DNA from: Arthrobacter alpinus
GTDB lineage: Bacteria; Actinomycetota; Actinomycetes; Actinomycetales; Micrococcaceae
Assembly: GCF_900105965.1 (NCBI RefSeq)
Contig: NZ_FNTV01000001.1
Span: 1,488,001-1,552,000, forward strand
Direction of reading: 5' to 3'
DNA length: 64,000 bases
Shown one piece after another: positions 52,263-63,800 of this stretch. Within the stretch, counting starts at the first letter, position 1, and each line of letters begins with the position of its first letter. Under the pieces are notes generated by a model. It saw nothing but the letters and a program-made list of their open reading frames with translations, had not been told where the DNA came from and did no database searches. The position numbers were made by a program, and so were the translations under genes.

Positions 52263-53003
52263 CTACTTAAAGGACTCAGCTCCGCCAACGTACTCGGTGT
52301 GTCCGGTGGGGACATCGGCCGTGGCCATCTTGGCGATCTCGGCAGCAAATTCAGAAACAGAGTAAAGGCGGCCGGCCTCGGCGCGGCGAGCCTCGATGGC
52401 GCCCGGGTTGGCCCGGTCCAGCAGGGTGGCCGTGACAGTTCCCTCGATCATGTCGGCGGAAACCACCACAAGGGAGATGTCCTCGAGCGCCAGGTTGGGG
52501 ATCAAGGCGCGCAGTGCATCCTCGCCAGCACGCTTGCTCTTGGCGACAGGCAGGTACTCGGGCATGGTGGGCACGGTTTCAATGAAGTGCGCCTGGTGAC
52601 TCGTGACGAAGACCACGCGTGAGCCGGCCGGCAGGACGGGCATTGCCGCGTTCAGCAGGTTGACCTGGGCATCACGGTTGAGCTGCAGGGCGTAGTCCGC
52701 TGCCATGCCGGATTCCATTCCGCCAGAGGCGTTCAGAACCACCAGGTCCAGCGAACCGAAGTTCTCCAGGGCGGCACTGACCAGGGCCTGTACGCCTTCC
52801 TGCGTGGTCAGGTCCGCCCCAATGGCCACGGCGCGGCCGCCAGCGGCGATAATCTCGGCCACAACTTTGTTGGCGCGCGGCGCCTTCTGGCGGTAGTTGA
52901 CCACCACGGCAGCACCTTCGGCTGCAAGGAACTTGGCCACATCGGCGCCTACGCCGCGTGAAGAACCGGTGACAATGGCTGTCTTTCCGTCAAGCTTTCC
53001 CAT
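52263..53003 (-). CDS. SDR oxidoreductase with Tyr-x6-Lys spacing (candidate enoyl-ACP reductase)
   Basis: A 246-residue SDR. The cofactor loop is the classical AIVTGSSRGVGADVAKFLA. The active-site region reads VTSHQAHF then MPEYLPVAKSKRAGED, so the Tyr is followed by Lys after six residues instead of three. That spacing is typical of enoyl-ACP reductases such as FabI, InhA and FabL; FabL also has a classical loop. Function is therefore plausibly enoyl reduction, but unproven. ATG at 53003 with AAGGA 7 nt upstream. Lies 126 nt after fabG on the same strand. Confidence 0.85.
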   Translation of the reverse strand: MGKLDGKTAIVTGSSRGVGADVAKFLAAEGAAVVVNYRQKAPRANKVVAEIIAAGGRAVAIGADLTTQEGVQALVSAALENFGSLDLVVLNASGGMESGMAADYALQLNRDAQVNLLNAAMPVLPAGSRVVFVTSHQAHFIETVPTMPEYLPVAKSKRAGEDALRALIPNLALEDISLVVVSADMIEGTVTATLLDRANPGAIEARRAEAGRLYSVSEFAAEIAKMATADVPTGHTEYVGGAESFK

Positions 53004-53129
53004 AAAAATATCCTTAAGTTTCAACGGTTAATTCAGTAAGTCAGATGGTCAACGCCACCTGCGGAACCCTTCAAGCATCATATCGGTGCGGATCCGCACC
53101 GATATGGAAGGCTGCGTTCCTGCGTGGAG

Positions 53130-53900
<771 letters not shown>

Positions 53901-56355: not shown

Positions 56356-57954
56356 CTAGGCCATGGTGATCAGGTCAAGGTAGTCCGGGCTCCACAGGTC
56401 CTCGTCGCCGTCGGGCAACAGCACGACTCGCTCGGGGTCCAGTGCCGCTACCGCACCCTCATCGTGGCTGACCAGGACAACAGCGCCTGTGTAGTTCTTC
56501 AGGGCCCCCAGAATTTCCGCACGGCTGGCGGGGTCCAGGTTGTTGGTGGGCTCATCCAGGAGCAACACGTTGGCACTCGAGGCAACGATCGTGGCCAATG
56601 CCAGACGTGTCTTCTCGCCACCAGACAGAACGCCGGCAGGCTTGTTGACGTCGTCTCCGGAAAACAGGAATGAGCCAAGGATTCCGCGGACTTCGGCGTC
56701 GTTCATGTCGCCAGCAGAGGCGCGCATGTTTTCAAGAACCGTCCGTGAGACATCCAGGGTGTCGTGTTCCTGGGCGTAGTAGCCAATCTTCACGCCGTGG
56801 CCGTGAATGATTTTGCCGGTGTCGGGCTTGGAAACGCCTGCGAGCATGCGCAAGAGGGTTGTCTTGCCGGCACCGTTGAGGCCAAGGATGACAACCTTGG
56901 ACCCTCGGTCAATCGCCAGGCTGACATCCACGAAAATTTCCAGGGAGCCATAAGACTTGCTGAGCCCTTCGGCCATCAGCGGGGTCTTGCCACACGGCGA
57001 CGGATCGGGGAAGCGCAGGGCTGCCACCTTGTCCTGGGCCCGGACTTCTTCAAGTCCTGCCAGCAGGCGTTCGGCGCGCTTGGCCATGTTCTGCGCGGCA
57101 ACAGCCTTGGTGGCCTTGGCCCGCATCTTGTTGGCCTGCTCCATCAGGACGCCGGCCTTCTTTTCAGCGTTGGCCCGTTCCCGGCGTCGTGCGCGTTCAT
57201 CGGTTTCCCGCTGCGCAAGATACTTCTTGTAGCCAAGGTTGTACTGGTCAATCGTGGCCCGGTTGGCGTCCAGGTGGTAAACCTTGTTCACGGTCGCATC
57301 GAGGAGTTCCACGTCGTGGCTAATCACGATCAAACCGCCATTGTGGCTCTTAAGGAAGTCCCGCAGCCAGGCCACGGAATCTGCGTCAAGGTGGTTGGTG
57401 GGCTCATCCAACAGCATGGTCTGAGCACCGGAAAACAGGATGCGGGCCAGTTCCACACGTCGGCGCTGACCACCGGAGAGTGTCTTCAACGGTTGGTTAA
57501 GAATGCGCTCAGGCAAGGCAAGGTTTGAGGAAATTGCCGCTGCCTCGGCCTCGGCGGCGTAACCACCGTTGGCCAGGAACTCAGCCTCAAGCCGGTCGTA
57601 GCGGCGCATGGCCTTGTCCCGGATGTTGTTGTCCTCGCTGGCCATGTCACTTTCGGCCTTGCGCAACTTGGTGATGACCTTGTCCAGGTCACGTGCCGCG
57701 AGGATTCTGTCCCTGGCAAGTTGTTCCATGTCCGGGGTCCGCGGATCCTGAGGCAGGTAACCAATCTCGCCCGTGCGGGTGACCTTGCCACCGGCGGGGA
57801 GACCCTCGCCGGCGAGCACGCGGGTCAGCGTGGTCTTGCCGGCTCCGTTGCGGCCCACAAGTCCGATCTTGTCACCGGAGTCGATGCGGAATGATACTTC
57901 GTCCATGAGCAGGCGCGCTCCAGCACGTAACTCAAGGTCTTGGACCGATATCAA
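56356..57954 (-). CDS. ABC-F family ATPase
   Basis: A 532-residue soluble protein with two ABC domains and no membrane part, acting on the ribosome (translation factor or antibiotic-protection role). Domain 1 has GLVGRNGAGKTTLTRVLAGE, signature LSGGQRRRVELAR and DEPTNHLD. The linker is about residues 240-330, rich in Arg, Ala and Lys. Domain 2 has ILGLNGAGKTTLLRMLAG, LSGGEKTRLALA and DEPTNNLD. The TTG start at 57954 is supported by GAAAGG 8 nt upstream and the typical MISVQDLELRAGARLL N-terminus. Confidence 0.9.
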   Translation of the reverse strand: MISVQDLELRAGARLLMDEVSFRIDSGDKIGLVGRNGAGKTTLTRVLAGEGLPAGGKVTRTGEIGYLPQDPRTPDMEQLARDRILAARDLDKVITKLRKAESDMASEDNNIRDKAMRRYDRLEAEFLANGGYAAEAEAAAISSNLALPERILNQPLKTLSGGQRRRVELARILFSGAQTMLLDEPTNHLDADSVAWLRDFLKSHNGGLIVISHDVELLDATVNKVYHLDANRATIDQYNLGYKKYLAQRETDERARRRERANAEKKAGVLMEQANKMRAKATKAVAAQNMAKRAERLLAGLEEVRAQDKVAALRFPDPSPCGKTPLMAEGLSKSYGSLEIFVDVSLAIDRGSKVVILGLNGAGKTTLLRMLAGVSKPDTGKIIHGHGVKIGYYAQEHDTLDVSRTVLENMRASAGDMNDAEVRGILGSFLFSGDDVNKPAGVLSGGEKTRLALATIVASSANVLLLDEPTNNLDPASRAEILGALKNYTGAVVLVSHDEGAVAALDPERVVLLPDGDEDLWSPDYLDLITMA

Positions 57955-57989
57955 CGTAGTAACCTTTCACGTAAGTGGGTATATGCCGC

Positions 57990-57999
57990 GAAACGTTTC
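57990..57999. promoter_or_regulatory. Short palindrome in the bioY upstream region
   Basis: GAAACGTTTC is a perfect 10-bp palindrome about 107 bp upstream of bioY, next to a TATATG -10-like sequence (57980-57985). Candidate regulator site; not matched to a known biotin operator. Confidence 0.3.
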
Positions 58000-58105
58000 T
58001 CTGCCGATTCTTCAGGAGACGAACGTTGAACAACCTAGCCAGTCTAACGAGGATCCGGGGTGGGGAAAATCCGGTCTCGGAAAAACTTCAGTGAAAGCAG
58101 CAATA

Positions 58106-58747
58106 ATGACTTCCTCACGATCGGTGGATGAGACGTTGACAACATCATCACAGCCGGCTGACAACGCAATAAACGTCTCTTCGCGCCGCCAGCGCTGGGG
58201 CGCCATGGACCTGTCCCTCATCGCAGTTTTTGCCGCATTGATGGCTGCTTCGATCGCCGTGCCGGGTATTAATATTGGGCCCACTGGCGTTGCCATCACC
58301 TTGCAGACACTCGTCGTGGCCCTCTGCGGACTGGTTCTGGGATTTGGCCGTGGCACCGCCGCTGTGGGGCTTTACGTACTGCTTGGCCTGATTGGCTTGC
58401 CAATTTTCAGCGGTTTCCGGGCAGGTCCGGCCGTCTTGGCAAGCCCATCCGCTGGCTACATTGTCGGCTTCATCTTCGGTGTTGCCGTGATCGGCCTATT
58501 GGCAGGTTTCGCCGTCCGGAGCCGCTGGCGAACAGCAGCTCTTTTCGCTGCGGCCATGGCCGGCACGGTGGTCACCCATGCCTGCGGCATTGTGGGATTC
58601 ATCATGAAGGGCATGAGCCTGCCCACCGCCATGATTGCCGACGTTGTGTACTTGCCGGGTGACATCCTCAAGAATGTCTTGGCCGTCGTGATCGCATTGA
58701 GCCTGCATCGCGCATTCCCTGACTTGTTGGTGCGCCGCCGCAAGTGA
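58106..58747 (+). CDS. bioY: Biotin ECF transporter S component BioY
   Basis: A 213-residue membrane protein that binds biotin and works with BioM and BioN. Six hydrophobic helices are visible; SLIAVFAALMAASIAVPGIN and PTGVAITLQTLVVALCGLVL, then SPSAGYIVGFIFGVAVIGLL and VYLPGDILKNVLAVVIAL, are the family blocks. A charged 30-residue leader precedes helix 1. ATG at 58106 with GAAAG upstream. Its stop overlaps the bioM start (GTGA). Confidence 0.94.
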   Translation: MTSSRSVDETLTTSSQPADNAINVSSRRQRWGAMDLSLIAVFAALMAASIAVPGINIGPTGVAITLQTLVVALCGLVLGFGRGTAAVGLYVLLGLIGLPIFSGFRAGPAVLASPSAGYIVGFIFGVAVIGLLAGFAVRSRWRTAALFAAAMAGTVVTHACGIVGFIMKGMSLPTAMIADVVYLPGDILKNVLAVVIALSLHRAFPDLLVRRRK

Positions 58748-59493
58748 GCACCTTAGCAAAACGCATTCCCGTGCGATCCAATCCCATCTCCAACAAAATT
58801 GTCCTGGCGCAGGCTGCGGTCGCAGTGGCTCCGGCCGATCCGCGATGGCAGCAGGCTCGGGAAATTCTCGCCCCGCTCTCGCTCACGCTCACCGAACAGC
58901 GGATCGCCGTCATCGGGGCCAATGGTTCCGGAAAGTCCACGCTACTGCGCCTCTTGAACGGTTTGGTGGTCCCGTCGTCGGGCACCGTGCATGTCAACGG
59001 ACACGGGACACACAATGAGGTTTCCGCGGTACGGCGCAGTGTCGGTTTTGTGTTCACGGATCCACTGTCGCAGCTCGTGATGCCGACACCGCAGGAAGAT
59101 GTGGAGTTGTCCCTCCGCAGGCAAAAACTTGGCAAGGCCGCTCGCAGGGAAAAGGCTCGGGACCTCCTGGCCGACTTTGGTTTGGATCACTTGGCCGAAA
59201 GCAGCATTTATGAGCTTTCCGGCGGTGAGCGCCAGCTCACCGCCCTTGCCACCGTGCTTGCCGTGGACCCGGAGATTCTTGTCTTGGATGAGCCCTCCAC
59301 ACTTCTGGATTTACGCAACACCAGGAAGCTTATGGAACGCTTGGATGCGCTCCCCCAGCAGGTCATCATGTCCACCCATGACCTTTCCCTGGCCGCTACG
59401 TTCGAGCGGATTCTCGTCATTGACCAGGGCAAGGTCGCCTACGACGGCGACGCCGCCACCGGGATTGCCCTATACCGTGAGCTGGCCGGGTAG
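58744..59493 (+). CDS. bioM: Biotin ECF transporter ATPase BioM
   Basis: A 249-residue ABC ATPase. Walker A GANGSGKST, Q-loop near FVFTDPLSQLVMPTPQED, signature LSGGERQLTALATVLAVDPE and Walker B LVLDEPSTLLD are visible. It follows the CbiO/BioM type used by energy-coupling-factor transporters. GTG start overlapping bioY; its stop shares one base with the bioN start (TAGTG). Together with bioY and bioN it makes a complete dedicated biotin importer. Confidence 0.92.
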   Translation: MSTLAKRIPVRSNPISNKIVLAQAAVAVAPADPRWQQAREILAPLSLTLTEQRIAVIGANGSGKSTLLRLLNGLVVPSSGTVHVNGHGTHNEVSAVRRSVGFVFTDPLSQLVMPTPQEDVELSLRRQKLGKAARREKARDLLADFGLDHLAESSIYELSGGERQLTALATVLAVDPEILVLDEPSTLLDLRNTRKLMERLDALPQQVIMSTHDLSLAATFERILVIDQGKVAYDGDAATGIALYRELAG

Positions 59494-60143
59494 TGCGCGG
59501 ACATGCGTTCCTCGTTGCTGGTTTTGTTCCCGGCACGTCCCTCATTCACCGACTGCCGCTTGCCGTAAAGGCCGCACTGCTGCTGCTGGTGGCAGTTCTC
59601 TGTCTGGGTTCACCGCTAGTCTCTGTGCGGGTTGGCGTAGTCACCACCACGGCAACGCTTGTGGCCGTCGTGGTGGCCCATTTTCTGACAGGGCTTGGCT
59701 GGCACCGGTTGTGGCGCGCGGTGCGCATCATGCTGGTTTTTCTCGTCCTGATTGCCGCATACCAATGGTGGCAGCATGGTGTGCCCACAGCGTGGCAAGT
59801 CATCGCCGCCATCGTTGCAACCGTGCTGGCCTCTAATGTTCTCACAGCGTCAACCCCGGTCGATGAGCTGCTGGACGGGCTTGCGGCCCTCGTCAAGCCT
59901 CTCGAGCGCTTTGGCGCAGACCCCGAACGATTTTCCTTGACCGTAGCCCTGATGTTGCGCAGCATCCCCTACGTGATTGGCGCATTCTCAGATGTCCGCG
60001 ATGCCGCCAGGGCCAGAGGCCTGGAGCGGAACCTTGTGGCCCGTTCGCTCCCGGTTGTCATCGCCACCGTTGCCTATGCCCGGGCTACGGGAGACGCTTT
60101 GGCTGCCCGGGGATTGGGCGATCCAGATCCCGACCCGCAGTAG
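59493..60143 (+). CDS. bioN: Biotin ECF transporter T component BioN
   Basis: A 216-residue membrane protein with about five helices, of the CbiQ/BioN family that couples the ATPase to BioY. FVPGTSLIHRLPLAVKAALL is the N-terminal block. The coupling Ala-Arg-Gly motifs appear as RDAARARGLERN and later DALAARGLGD. GTG start at 59493. Ends 3 nt before the thiolase gene, which runs the other way. Confidence 0.93.
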   Translation: MRGHAFLVAGFVPGTSLIHRLPLAVKAALLLLVAVLCLGSPLVSVRVGVVTTTATLVAVVVAHFLTGLGWHRLWRAVRIMLVFLVLIAAYQWWQHGVPTAWQVIAAIVATVLASNVLTASTPVDELLDGLAALVKPLERFGADPERFSLTVALMLRSIPYVIGAFSDVRDAARARGLERNLVARSLPVVIATVAYARATGDALAARGLGDPDPDPQ

Positions 60144-60146
60144 CAG

Positions 60147-61364
60147 CTAGAGCTGCATCCATTGGAAGTGTGCTGAGATTCCTATGCCGCCGGCCATGCT
60201 GATCATGGCCATCGCATCAGTGCCGGGCTCCGCCCCGCGCCGTGCCCGGGCCAACAACCTCGTCACCAAAACCGCTCCCGACGCCCCGTACGGGTGCCCC
60301 AAGGCCAGCGCCCCGCCGTCGTGGTTGAAGAGATTCGGGTCCAGCTCGAGTAGATCGGCCGTCGCAAGGACTTGGGCGGCAAAGGCCTCGTTGTATTCGA
60401 GCATGCTGTTGCGTAGCTCCCCCGTGGTCATACCCGTTCGGGCCATGAGGTCACGTGTTGAATGCGCCGCAGCCACACCCAGAAGATTGGGGTCATTGCC
60501 TGTCACTGCGCTGTCGCGGAAGACCAGGCCGACGGCGGAACCTCCCGGAACCACTCCACCCTTGGCTGCCTCAACCTGGGAAGCGAGCGTCCTGGCGCGG
60601 GCGAGCGTGGTGACCGCGACGACAGCCGCACCATCACTGTAAGGGCAGGAGTTGCCAGCCGTGACGGTGCCGCCGGGCACAAAGGCGGCGGGGAATCGAG
60701 CCAAGAGCTCCGGGGTGAGGTGTCCGCGTGGCCCCTGATCGGCTTCGACGCCCGCAAAAGGAGTGAGTTCTTGCGTGAAGTGGCCATTTCGGGCGGCAGC
60801 CGTGGCTCGAGCATGGCTCTGCAAAGCGTATGAATCTTGCCGCGCCCTGCTAATGCCGTAGTACGTGGCGACATTTTCCGCAGCTTCGCCGGCGTCGGGG
60901 TCGCCTGTCTCATATGGCGCGAATTGGGCCCGCTCAAAGAATTCAAGCTCACCGTCAGGGCCACGGTAGGCCCGTGCCGGGGCGGTGCTGATGCTTTCTG
61001 CGCCTCCCGCCAAATACAATTCGCCTGCCCCGGCTTGAACAAGCCGACAGGCCAGGACAATGGCTTCTAGTCCCGAGCCGCACTGACGGTCCACCGTTAG
61101 CCCAGGTATCTGCTCCGGCAACCCAGCCGTCAATGCTGCCAGCCGGGCCACATTGCCGCCACCCCCCGTGGCATTGCCGATAATGACATCAGCGATACTC
61201 TCCCCGGCGATGCCGGGTTCACGCATAATATCCGCGATGGCCGCTGCCGCAAGTTGGTGCGCTCGATAATTCTTGTAGGGTCCTCCGGCCTTTGCCGTTG
61301 GCAGGCGCTTTGCCGCGATAATCACGGGAGTGGTTTCGGGTGGGCTAGCGAATGCGCGTGGCAC
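60147..61364 (-). CDS. Thiolase family protein with Ser in place of the second Cys
   Basis: A 405-residue thiolase. The nucleophilic Cys95 is in LTVDRQCGSGLEAIVLACRL and the His in GGALALGHPYGASGAV. At the C-terminus, where thiolases have Cys-x-Gly-Gly-Gly-x-Gly, this protein reads SMAGGIGIS, so the second Cys is replaced by Ser. It could act as a condensing or degradative enzyme with altered activity. It overlaps the AMP-ligase gene by 20 nt and follows it. The pair faces the biotin transporter genes. Confidence 0.9.
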   Translation of the reverse strand: MPRAFASPPETTPVIIAAKRLPTAKAGGPYKNYRAHQLAAAAIADIMREPGIAGESIADVIIGNATGGGGNVARLAALTAGLPEQIPGLTVDRQCGSGLEAIVLACRLVQAGAGELYLAGGAESISTAPARAYRGPDGELEFFERAQFAPYETGDPDAGEAAENVATYYGISRARQDSYALQSHARATAAARNGHFTQELTPFAGVEADQGPRGHLTPELLARFPAAFVPGGTVTAGNSCPYSDGAAVVAVTTLARARTLASQVEAAKGGVVPGGSAVGLVFRDSAVTGNDPNLLGVAAAHSTRDLMARTGMTTGELRNSMLEYNEAFAAQVLATADLLELDPNLFNHDGGALALGHPYGASGAVLVTRLLARARRGAEPGTDAMAMISMAGGIGISAHFQWMQL

Positions 61365-62844
61365 GGGAGTCCCCTTCCTTGATCCATTGAGTCAGCACTA
61401 TGCGGCTGATCTTGCCGCTACCGGTCAGCGGCAAGTCGCTGAGCTGATAAAACTGTTGGGGGCGCTGGGCTGCTGGTAGTGATGAGGCTGCTCGCCGGAC
61501 CTCAGCAAGTGGAAAGTGTTCCGTGAGCGGTGCGTAAATCCCGGCGATGAGGACTTGGCCGCGCCGCTCATCCGGTAGGCCCGCCACAACAGCCGTACAC
61601 GGGACGGGGACCTCCCCATCAGTTCCAATAGTGGCCCCTCGCACCGGCGGCTCACTCTTCAACGCTGCTGAAAGGACCCGCTCCACGTGGTGTGGGTATA
61701 CGTTGGTTCCCGAGACAATGACCATGTCACTGGCTCGTCCGGACAAATTCAGCCGCCCCTCGGCGTCCAAGAATCCTTGGTCCCGCACGGTGGACCACAG
61801 TGCCGCATTATGACCGGCCGGCAGACCGGAACCAGCGAATGTTTGGGAGGTAAAGGCCATCCCGTCGTCACCCCAGGCGTATCCATCGCAGGCGTAGGGT
61901 CCCTTCACCCAGACATCGCCCGATTGCCCGGGTTCCAGTTCTTCCCCCGCGTCATCCCTGATGGAGATTTGCACGCCGGGGAAAGCCGTCCCCACACCTT
62001 GTGCGTCCTGGTTGAGGTCTGGCTTTTGCATCGAGGTGGCCGCGACAAACCCTAGCTCGGCAGCACCATAATATTGCTGAATGTCAGCATTGGGCGCCCA
62101 CGATCGGGCTAGCGCCAGCGTCGCATCCGGCAGGTCCGAGCCAGCACAGACAATCGAACGAAGCTCCTGCCCGGTTTGCCCCGTTGCAAGGCCGCGGCTG
62201 GCGATCAAGCCCAGGACCGTGGGCACAAGAACCAGACGGTCCACGTTGTGCTCAGTCATGGCCTGCAATGCAGCATCTGGACTGAAGTGCGGAAGCGCCA
62301 CGAAGCCACCTCCGGCAAAGAGCGACTCCGACAAGGCATAGAGGTTCATGCTGGCAGCCATGGGCCCCGGGGCCAGGGTGACCGATTCCGGTCCAAGGTG
62401 AAAGTACTCAACGCTTTGCACAAACGACTCATGCCAGGACGCCGCATTGCGCACAAAGGCTTTCGGAACGCCGCTGGTTCCAGAGGAGAGCCCCAGGAGG
62501 AACGGGGGTGCCGCCGCTGCTCCCCTGTCCAGGGTCATTTGCCGTGCAGACCAATCTGCGGCCGCTTGTCGCAGCTGCGCCCGCAAACCCTGGGGCCATT
62601 GCGCGTCCAGGACCATGGCGGTCCTGCCCTCGAGGACTGCAGCGCAGAAAGCCACGGCAAGTTCGGTGCTGCTGGGTACCTCGATGATGGCAAGGCTGTC
62701 CGTGCCGGAGGCGTTTGGCTGCGTTTGGGCGCCCCCGAGGAGCTGACCGTACGTTAGCCGGCTCTCCCCCACCACGACGGCGTTGCGGTCCCCGTGGGTG
62801 GCGGCCCAGTGTTTGAGTTCATCGATGAATGGCATTGTTTTCAT
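61345..62844 (-). CDS. AMP-binding acyl-CoA ligase
   Basis: A 499-residue member of the ANL superfamily, which activates a carboxylate with ATP and transfers it to CoA. LLGLSSGTSGVPKAFVRN is the P-loop (A3). IQQYYGAAELGFVAATS is the A5 region, VWVKGPYACDGYAWGDDGMA and LNLSGRASDMVIVSGTNVYP the A7/A8 region with Asp, and LPLTGSGKISRIVL the A10 Lys. The acid is unknown. ATG at 62844 chosen; the start is uncertain. First gene of the pair with the thiolase. Confidence 0.88.
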   Translation of the reverse strand: MKTMPFIDELKHWAATHGDRNAVVVGESRLTYGQLLGGAQTQPNASGTDSLAIIEVPSSTELAVAFCAAVLEGRTAMVLDAQWPQGLRAQLRQAAADWSARQMTLDRGAAAAPPFLLGLSSGTSGVPKAFVRNAASWHESFVQSVEYFHLGPESVTLAPGPMAASMNLYALSESLFAGGGFVALPHFSPDAALQAMTEHNVDRLVLVPTVLGLIASRGLATGQTGQELRSIVCAGSDLPDATLALARSWAPNADIQQYYGAAELGFVAATSMQKPDLNQDAQGVGTAFPGVQISIRDDAGEELEPGQSGDVWVKGPYACDGYAWGDDGMAFTSQTFAGSGLPAGHNAALWSTVRDQGFLDAEGRLNLSGRASDMVIVSGTNVYPHHVERVLSAALKSEPPVRGATIGTDGEVPVPCTAVVAGLPDERRGQVLIAGIYAPLTEHFPLAEVRRAASSLPAAQRPQQFYQLSDLPLTGSGKISRIVLTQWIKEGDSRATRIR

Positions 62845-62883
62845 GGTAGATGAGATTTCCACCGCCAACGCCAGGCAGCCGCT

Positions 62884-62894
62884 ACTCTAAGTGC
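62884..62894 (+). promoter_or_regulatory. -10-like box of a probable leaderless promoter
   Basis: TACTCT (62884-62889) ends 5 nt before the ATG at 62895; no ribosome site. Weaker than the other cases. Confidence 0.3.
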
Positions 62895-63800
62895 ATGACA
62901 TTTAATGAAGGGGCCCGCCTGGACCCATCACAGGCAGAGGACCGCAGGGGCCGCGGCGGAATGGGACGCGGCGGCAAGGTGGGACTTGGACTTGGCGGTG
63001 GCATCGTGGTCCTGATTGGCGCCTTGCTGGGCATCAATCCCGACCTCTTGTCATCCCTGCTTGGCGATACCGGCGAGCAACCAGCGATCGAGCAATCCGG
63101 GGGCTCCGCGCTTGAAAGCTGCCGGACCGGCCAAGACGCCAATGACCGTCTTGACTGCCGCATCCTTGGCACGGCCAATTCACTTAATGCCTTTTGGCCC
63201 AGCTATCTGGAACCGCAAGGGATCTCCTACTCCGCACCAAAAACTGTGATTTTCTCAGGGAGCGTCAGTACGGCGTGTGGGCTGGCCAGTTCGGCCGTGG
63301 GACCGTTCTACTGCCCGGGCGACAACAAAGCCTATTTCGACCCTGATTTCTTCGCCCAACTTGAGACGCAGTTTGGTTCCTCAGGTGGCCCCTTGGCCCA
63401 GGAATATGTGGTCGCCCATGAATTCGGGCACCATGTTCAAGACCTGCTCGGTACCATCGGTCAGGCTCAGCAAGACCCGCAGGGCGCCCAATCGGCCTCC
63501 GTGCGCACCGAGCTGCAGGCTGACTGCTATGCGGGAATCTGGATGCGTTACGCATCCTCCCAAGCCGCTCCCGGCAGCGACCAGCCATTCCTGGTGGCGT
63601 TGACCCAGACGGACCTCAACGACGCCCTGTCGGCGGCGTCATCGGTGGGCGACGACAGGATTCAGCAGGCAGCTACGGGGCGCACCAACCCGGAAACCTG
63701 GAGTCACGGCTCCAGTGAGCAACGGCAAAAGTGGCTCTACACGGGCTATCAAAGTGCCGATCTGGCAGCGTGCGACACCTTCGCCGTACCCAAGGTGTAG
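62895..63800 (+). CDS. YpfJ-type neutral zinc metallopeptidase
   Basis: A 301-residue protein of the YpfJ/neutral zinc metallopeptidase family. An N-terminal basic Gly-rich segment is followed by a membrane anchor (VGLGLGGGIVVLIGALLGI). The zinc site is EYVVAHEFGHHVQDLLGT (HExxH). FYCPGDNKAYFDPDFFAQLE and ELQADCYAGIWMRYA are the other family blocks. The catalytic part should lie outside the membrane. ATG at 62895. Divergent from the AMP-ligase gene (50-nt gap). Confidence 0.93.
   Translation: MTFNEGARLDPSQAEDRRGRGGMGRGGKVGLGLGGGIVVLIGALLGINPDLLSSLLGDTGEQPAIEQSGGSALESCRTGQDANDRLDCRILGTANSLNAFWPSYLEPQGISYSAPKTVIFSGSVSTACGLASSAVGPFYCPGDNKAYFDPDFFAQLETQFGSSGGPLAQEYVVAHEFGHHVQDLLGTIGQAQQDPQGAQSASVRTELQADCYAGIWMRYASSQAAPGSDQPFLVALTQTDLNDALSAASSVGDDRIQQAATGRTNPETWSHGSSEQRQKWLYTGYQSADLAACDTFAVPKV

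Follow-up and report, generated by a model that had tools for sequence, protein, structure and literature searches.

We analysed a stretch of 64,000 nucleotides (nt) of the Arthrobacter alpinus genome (the window; contig NZ_FNTV01000001.1, positions 1,488,001 to 1,552,000), in which the bioY-bioM-bioN genes of an energy-coupling factor (ECF) transporter converge on a gene pair encoding an atypical YhfS-like thiolase and a YhfT-like AMP-forming acyl-coenzyme A (CoA) ligase. We tentatively read BioYMN and the ligase-thiolase pair as a biotin-vitamer acquisition module, in which an imported nor-biotin (bisnorbiotin) would be extended to biotin. The proposal draws on the gene order, the protein families, a thiolase group that is shared with Bacillota and has lost Cys378, and, in relatives of the window locus, on biotin-repressor operators, reductive partner genes and an occurrence in genomes without the biotin synthase gene bioB.

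The three transporter genes lie on the forward strand and are joined by head-to-tail overlaps. bioY (58106..58747) encodes the S-component (PF02632, 118.6 bits against a family cut-off of 25), bioM (58744..59493) the ATPase (ABC_tran; the best NCBIfam models are ECF ATPases, with scores below cut-off) and bioN (59493..60143) the transmembrane (T) component (PF02361, 40.8 bits), with the S, A and T components of a BioMNY biotin transporter all within one operon. The bioY product, the only BioY match in the 4.62-Mb host genome, matches the solved BioY of Lactococcus lactis (4dve; phmmer, E 6.2e-16), and BioYMN of the window is a putative biotin importer. The nearest named proteins of the host are those of Arthrobacter and Specibacter, which places it in the Micrococcaceae. 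On the opposite strand, the stop codon of the thiolase gene (60147..61364) begins at 60147, which leaves a gap of 3 nt to the end of bioN at 60143, and the start of the thiolase gene overlaps the end of the ligase gene (61345..62844; alternative start TTG at 62868) by 20 nt. Both the coordinates and the families match those given in the initial annotation, a model's reading of the letters alone. Its remark that bioB and bioF are missing from the window also holds, as genome-wide searches gave no match in the window range (bioF was searched for in the window's genome only; bioA and bioD were not searched for there).

The linkage of transporter, ligase and thiolase is widespread. A scan of named genomes with the thiolase alignment confirmed at least 581 relatives, of which the 80 best by similarity, not a random draw, were inspected. 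A ligase gene lies within 600 bases of the thiolase gene and on the same strand in 78 of the 80 loci, and BioY lies within 5 kb in 66. The linked loci span Actinomycetota, Bacillota, Alphaproteobacteria and others, in agreement with the initial annotation, which had described the association as common to distant phyla. The most frequent gene order is bioY-ligase-thiolase-bioM-bioN (31 loci), followed by bioM-bioN-bioY-ligase-thiolase, bioY-ligase-thiolase and ligase-thiolase alone (11 each), the convergent order of the window (9) and minor ones (7). Closer to the host, 49 of 149 Micrococcales genomes have a PRK06690 match with an E-value of 1e-70 or lower; among the 30 loci fetched, bioM, bioN or bioY stands beside the thiolase in 19, two have a ligase and no bio gene within the short stretch fetched, and nine are ordinary thiolases without ligase or bio gene. 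Because of these neighbourhood counts, the adjacency of transporter and enzymes is not due to chance.

The arrangement is also found on plasmids. Annotated Azospirillum plasmids carry bioM-bioN-bioY-ligase-thiolase, in Sinorhizobium bioM-bioN-bioY precede a ligase frame that lacks annotation and then the thiolase, and two Rhizobium plasmids carry thioesterase-ligase-thiolase, with no bioY match in the fetched stretch. Four Geodermatophilaceae loci (L039, L047, L057 and L063) have the convergent ligase-thiolase / bioN-bioM-bioY order of the window; L039, the only one of them in the thiolase tree, falls in a different clade from the window thiolase.

The closest specific NCBIfam models of the two window enzymes are PRK06690 and PRK07638, which we take to be the models of Bacillus subtilis YhfS and YhfT. 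The thiolase scores 310.1 bits with PRK06690 (NF005212), 307.5 with the generic TIGR01930 and 216.9 with the next model; it stays below the curated PRK06690 cut-off of 498, as does the Bacillota copy in L075 (449.9 bits), and in 14 control genomes the cut-off is exceeded in one, that of B. subtilis. In a tree of 65 thiolase sequences, built by a quick method with Shimodaira-Hasegawa-like approximate likelihood ratio test (SH-aLRT) support and without bootstrap, a branch with an SH-aLRT value of 100 separates the window thiolase and 49 BioY-type relatives from ten ordinary thiolases and five paralogues from the host's own genome. The 49 relatives come from Bacillota, Alphaproteobacteria, Actinomycetota, one cyanobacterium and one Marinimicrobia metagenome-assembled genome (MAG). 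In the thiolase tree, the window enzyme thus sides with the copies from Bacillota instead of the general thiolases, and the adjacency recurs in related genomes; the outcome that would have counted against the initial annotation is therefore not seen. Within the group, the tree places the window enzyme closer to copies from Streptomyces albireticuli and Alphaproteobacteria than to the principal clade of Actinomycetota. This suggests lateral transfer, as a suggestion only, because the inner forks of the tree have SH-aLRT values of just 86-92.

The thiolase group has an altered active site. Cys89, Asn316, His348 and Cys378 are given here in what we take to be Zoogloea numbering, and position 378 was checked against a Clostridium thiolase in the PDB. 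The nucleophilic cysteine (Cys95 of the window thiolase, equivalent to Cys89, in DRQCGSG) and the histidine (His357, equivalent to His348, in LGHPYGASG) are present, and both are retained in the relatives shown in the alignment. The canonical second cysteine is not: Ser389 of the window enzyme replaces Cys378, and the motif reads SMAGGIG instead of CxGGGxG. In the whole group, cysteine is found at this position in 0 of 110 sequences (Gly 44, Ala 42, Ser 24; the 111 aligned rows include L112, which has a gap here, and three repeat fetches of one gene, L123-L125), whereas it is kept in 15 of 15 ordinary thiolases, a small control set of ten from other loci and the five own-genome paralogues. The window thiolase has an extra cysteine, Cys240, in the motif AGNSCP; a cysteine in this AGNxC motif occurs in 96 of 111 group rows and in 0 of the 15 ordinary thiolases. 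The predicted model retains the thiolase fold, and a fold search returned a plain thiolase fold without a hint of the substrate. A shortened acyl-pocket loop was considered and rejected, as there is no clear difference in length (median 37 versus 34 residues).

The ligase has the features of an AMP-forming enzyme of the ANL superfamily, namely the P-loop SSGTSGVPK, the YxxxE-type motif YYGAAE, the catalytic Lys478 (numbered from the ATG at 62844) and, in an AlphaFold2 model with a predicted local distance difference test score of 89.4, the ANL-superfamily fold; the fold search gave no substrate hint. Its score with PRK07638 (NF005797) is 192.5 bits, 57 bits ahead of the next model (135.7) and below the curated cut-off of 518. 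In Nocardia and Rhodococcus (L040, L042-L046, L048, L051, L052, L054 and L066), a second YhfT-like ligase lies 3' of bioN and outscores the in-operon ligase against the window ligase. The in-operon ligase frames of L040, L043, L044, L046, L048, L051, L052 and L054 have only ~365-385 residues, and the N-terminal part of their adenylation domain seems much reduced.

Biotin-repressor operators head the gene cluster in 22 of the best 80 loci. Our BirA search used what we take to be the BirA half-site letters. In Nocardia and Rhodococcus, the exact BioQ palindrome TTGAAC-N3-GTTCAA is found at the bioY start in 11 loci, 2 to 134 bases ahead of the point where the BioY match begins. The 1,263,585 bases of the 80 loci hold 11 copies of the perfect palindrome, and all 11 are at a bioY start. 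Likewise, the 337,667 bases of the 20 Bacillota loci hold 11 BirA-type sites with at most 2 mismatches of 16, one in each of 11 loci and all heading clusters, versus an average of 0.4 in shuffled sequences that preserve base composition only. Specifically, the site is directly before the ligase gene in Paenibacillus L074 and L089 and overlaps the first possible bioY start codon in L106 and L109; a BirA-like site is near the cluster head in 5 of 10 further Paenibacillaceae loci. The BioQ pattern is that given in PMC3398298. From the available text of published work, BirA is known to control B. subtilis yhfUTS (PMC4016012) and Staphylococcus aureus yhfS-yhfT (PMC6391492, PMC7235819); the S. aureus yhfS-yhfT and bioY promoters are repressed by biotin via S. 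aureus BirA in Escherichia coli reporters (PMC6391492).

Partner genes were counted within 4 kb of the thiolase at 84 loci, using one to three query proteins per family. The counts are 12 for thioesterase, 11 for short-chain dehydrogenase/reductase (SDR; one weak), 10 for MaoC (one weak and distant), 8 for MaoC-N, 10 for a MECR-like and 2 for a FabK-like reductase (a third, in L084, is beyond 4 kb). Among the 20 named Bacillota loci, SDR is found in 10 and MaoC in 9; the operon of part of this phylum adds two small hotdog proteins of the FAS1_DH/MaoC type and a FabG-like SDR. Paenibacillaceae operons also carry a FabK-like flavin mononucleotide (FMN) enzyme, which some of them place after ecfA1A2T, as in L154 and L159 (bioY-ligase-thiolase-hotdogs-SDR-ecfA1A2T-FabK). 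The FabK model is the top NCBIfam match of the four FabK-like copies tested (276-289 bits, cut-off 453), and the best solved match of the FabK-like protein is FabK (7l00). Of the 12 alphaproteobacterial loci, 9 have, no more than 4 kb away from the thiolase, a YbgC-like thioesterase and a medium-chain (MECR-like) reductase, the latter annotated as an alcohol dehydrogenase; the same two are found at two Streptomycetaceae loci. The best solved matches of the MECR-like protein are mitochondrial 2-enoyl-thioester reductases, ranked after one putative quinone reductase. Judged by family, the partner genes form a reductive two-carbon extension set; a reductive cycle is argued because two phyla have recruited two unrelated enoyl-reductase-type proteins.

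The module is often found where biotin synthase, the enzyme of the final step in making biotin, is not. bioB was found in 43 of the 78 genomes behind the best 80 loci (26 of 50 and 17 of 28) and not in 35, which include drafts and MAGs, where an individual absence may reflect a gap. Among 98 sampled Paenibacillaceae genomes, the thiolase is present in 11, and bioB is missing from 9 of these 11 versus 36 of the 87 without thiolase, a small count not corrected for kinship (Fisher p 0.021; 0.040 after removal of the chosen centre genome). All 8 newly fetched bioB-less Paenibacillaceae loci have the ligase, the thiolase, both hotdogs, the SDR and the FabK-like gene; with L074, L084 and L089, the full set is found in 11 of the 12 bioB-less Paenibacillaceae loci examined. 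The 2 bioB-bearing loci have the ligase, the thiolase and the SDR, and neither has the full set.

We infer every substrate and the direction of the following steps, as well as the same working of the window copy. The ECF transporter would import biotin together with side-chain-shortened biotin, chiefly bisnorbiotin, the β-oxidation product of biotin that is two carbons shorter. The YhfT-like ligase would turn the shortened acid into its CoA thioester via an acyl-AMP, and the YhfS-like thiolase would load the acyl group on its nucleophilic cysteine and add a two-carbon unit. A ketoreductase, a dehydratase and an enoyl reductase would then clear the β-keto group: the in-operon FabG-like SDR, hotdog/MaoC proteins and FabK-like enzyme in part of Bacillota, the MECR-like reductase in Alphaproteobacteria, and general enzymes in A. 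alpinus. Finally, a thioesterase would release biotin, the free acid being the form that biotin protein ligase needs. A ring-bearing precursor is proposed because a cell without bioB could profit from an acyl module that is under biotin control and coupled to a biotin importer only if the module yields biotin itself. Activation to the CoA thioester, a single reductive two-carbon extension and release of the free acid would call for exactly the protein families seen at these loci. In its most specific form, a route to biotin without biotin synthase, by one reductive two-carbon side-chain extension of imported bisnorbiotin on the Cys378-less thiolase subclass, the proposal is possible and rather doubtful. 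Bisnorbiotin is a natural ring-bearing compound two carbons short of biotin, reported as a human metabolite that accounts for 13-23% of all biotin forms excreted in 24-h urine (PMC9106636, available text).

Several observations weigh against the vitamer-acquisition proposal, and some concern the window copy itself. The only enzymes in the window cluster are the ligase and the thiolase, and no ketoreductase, dehydratase and enoyl reductase set for reverse β-oxidation is found in it. The host has its own bioB-bioA-bioF-P450-bioD genes (C1:645-651 kb); because of this, the module is at most an addition to biotin synthesis in A. alpinus. A perfect BioQ palindrome precedes bioB in the same genome, while no convincing BioQ operator is found before bioY or the ligase gene of the window, the best site having 3 mismatches; because of this, biotin control of the window copy is not supported by sequence. 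For the biotin-linked acyl-CoA pathway proposed in the initial annotation, a link to biotin regulation is seen in relatives. The window copy is a minimal version, a ligase and a thiolase without visible operator in a host with its own biotin genes.

Other adverse points concern the relatives. No BirA site with at most 2 mismatches is found in 9 of the 20 Bacillota loci, half of the Bacillota loci lack the SDR and MaoC genes, and L079 is bioB-less and yet without the reductive genes. The ligase of L089 reads in two frames, perhaps because the gene is broken or the sequence contains an error. The FabK-like proteins score below the FabK cut-off, and among solved matches a putative nitroalkane dioxygenase and nitronate monooxygenases rank little lower than FabK; the MECR-like protein is nearest to a putative quinone reductase, its first NCBIfam model being a quinone-reductase subfamily, under cut-off. 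In both bioB-bearing Paenibacillaceae loci (L151 and L153), a match to acyl-CoA dehydrogenase lies 4-5 kb away from the thiolase. Co-loss with bioB was also tried in Micrococcales and rejected: bioB is present in 3 of 21 genomes with a linked thiolase and in 15 of 128 others (p 0.72), where the 21 have linked copies at E 1e-70 or better, and genomes with weaker linked copies, as well as G005 and G122 (pair not next to bioY), were counted as without. B. subtilis YhfU was reported in 2024 as the pantothenate S-component PanU (PMC11487621, available text), and a search of the full-text literature, with subscription papers outside it, found no substrate for enzymes of the YhfT/YhfS group, no role for YhfT/YhfS and no bisnorbiotin elongation.

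A further objection is chemical. Cys378 is the base in the Claisen condensation. Because it is gone in 110 of 110 rows and Asn316 in 45 of 111 (it is kept in 66), the usual Claisen chemistry cannot be assumed for the thiolase group. Because the lost residue is the base of this mechanism, either the AGNxC cysteine would replace it, or the reaction would differ, as a decarboxylative condensation or an acyl transfer. In another reading, the thiolase would form no carbon-carbon bond and would act as an acyltransferase or hydrolase that moves the ligase-activated acyl group to another acceptor. This fits the loss of the two residues, and we regard it as quite unlikely: the dehydratase, ketoreductase and enoyl reductase of the relatives would be purposeless without a β-keto product, and the new cysteine may stand in for the base.

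The main rival to bisnorbiotin extension is a biotin-sparing, malonyl-CoA-independent extension, which we consider unlikely. Acetyl-CoA carboxylase fails when biotin is short, and the set would in that case make or lengthen fatty acyl chains from acetyl-CoA; the same reductive enzymes and the same biotin-repressor operators would serve it, and auxotrophs would gain most. Against it, the enzymes are interleaved with transporter genes in L154 and L159, and the thioesterase beside the alphaproteobacterial copies would waste acyl-CoA meant for lipids. Moreover, phospholipid synthesis in Bacillota uses acyl-acyl carrier protein (ACP) and PlsX and is not known to use acyl-CoA. A supply of pimelate, one of the ideas of the initial annotation, would have glutaryl-CoA extended, or longer dicarboxylic acids trimmed, to pimeloyl-CoA for BioF. 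One two-carbon extension of glutaryl-CoA indeed gives the pimeloyl backbone, and more than half of the genomes above have bioB. As a general role it is rejected, since no bioB was found in the other 35 of 78, drafts and MAGs included, among them the Paenibacillaceae with the fullest operons; in A. alpinus, by analogy with BioI, the P450 of the bio operon may supply pimelate. It is improbable overall.

We give an equally small chance to oxidative degradation of the side chain of biotin or acids related to it, as a carbon source or a means of detoxification; degradation of biotin had also been raised in the initial annotation. β-Oxidation starts with a ligase and ends with a thiolase, and acyl-CoA dehydrogenase matches are near the thiolase in L108, L116, L151 and L153. 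Only the first two of these are within 4 kb (3.3-3.7 kb; 2 of 84 loci, one query), where enoyl-CoA hydratase is found once, at one of the two, and EtfA/EtfB in 0 of 84. The FabK-like and MECR-like enoyl reductases run in the opposite direction, and BirA and BioQ operators, at the head of 22 of 80 clusters, imply expression under biotin scarcity; degradation is therefore disfavoured. Least probable of all, and very much so, is a role linked to CoA or pantothenate, in which the S-component imports pantothenate and the ligase and thiolase act in acyl-CoA housekeeping. It is suggested by a panC yhfU double mutant that cannot use pantothenate (PMC11487621, available text). However, the operators belong to biotin repressors, and many copies adjoin a dedicated BioMN pair; Corynebacterium glutamicum BioYMN imports biotin (PMC3398298, available text).

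The window locus resembles known systems in part. We take S. aureus yhfT-yhfS to be, probably, vraA-vraB. The initial annotation compared the locus with the yhfU(bioY)-yhfT-yhfS operon of B. subtilis. The three protein types are indeed the same, and the Bacillus-type NCBIfam models fit the window enzymes best, a likeness judged via these models; the parallel weakens in that YhfU is now reported as a pantothenate carrier (PanU; PMC11487621, available text). Unlike in B. subtilis, the window enzymes are on the opposite strand, a dedicated bioMN is adjacent, and the scores are under the model cut-offs. S. aureus yhfT-yhfS has the ligase-thiolase pair in common with the window, with a promoter repressed by biotin via BirA (PMC6391492, PMC7235819, available text). 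Four related loci (L097, L103, L107 and L115) share the pair and the loss of Cys378 and, unlike the window, lack bioY within the stretch fetched; the pair is followed in them by a short frame (123-139 residues), with no NCBIfam match (L097) and no Pfam match (L097, L103 and L115). C. glutamicum has a BioY-BioM-BioN biotin importer like that of the window, likened here by description, and the available text of PMC3398298 mentions no ligase or thiolase with it. Compared with the biosynthetic thiolases Zoogloea PhaA and Clostridium ThlA, the YhfS group has Gly, Ala or Ser for Cys378 and the new AGNxC cysteine. BioZ likewise extends a chain once by two carbons in the context of biotin and gives the pimeloyl backbone; it is a β-ketoacyl-ACP synthase (KAS) III-type enzyme that feeds BioF, whereas the YhfS group is of the thiolase type and often found where no bioB is.

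The gene set is flanked by an ABC-F gene (56356..57954), divergent from bioY, and by a zinc metallopeptidase gene (62850..63800). The intergenic region 5' of bioY (57955..58105, forward strand) contains the best BioQ-like site, with 3 mismatches of 12. The ABC-F protein exceeds the cut-off of an NCBIfam ribosomal-protection-like ABC-F model, and ABC-F homologues are near bioY in several Arthrobacter loci. Two SDR genes (52263-53885), one of which resembles FabG in sequence, are located on the opposite strand at a distance of ~4 kb from bioY, and several Arthrobacter loci have SDR frames at their far end. The bio operon of the host (L119 6817-12995; own genome C1:638000-656000) is faced by a TetR gene and has the perfect BioQ palindrome, and the solved matches of its P450 are other P450s.

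The proposal gives YhfT and YhfS a testable job and a defined set of partners, with the whole proposed pathway contained in one gene cluster in bioB-less Paenibacillaceae, and the loss of Cys378 poses a puzzle for thiolase enzymology. If it is true, a vitamin-recycling route would join biotin metabolism, auxotrophs could live on the breakdown products of biotin, and YhfT/YhfS, like VraA/VraB of S. aureus, would be enzymes of vitamin repair.

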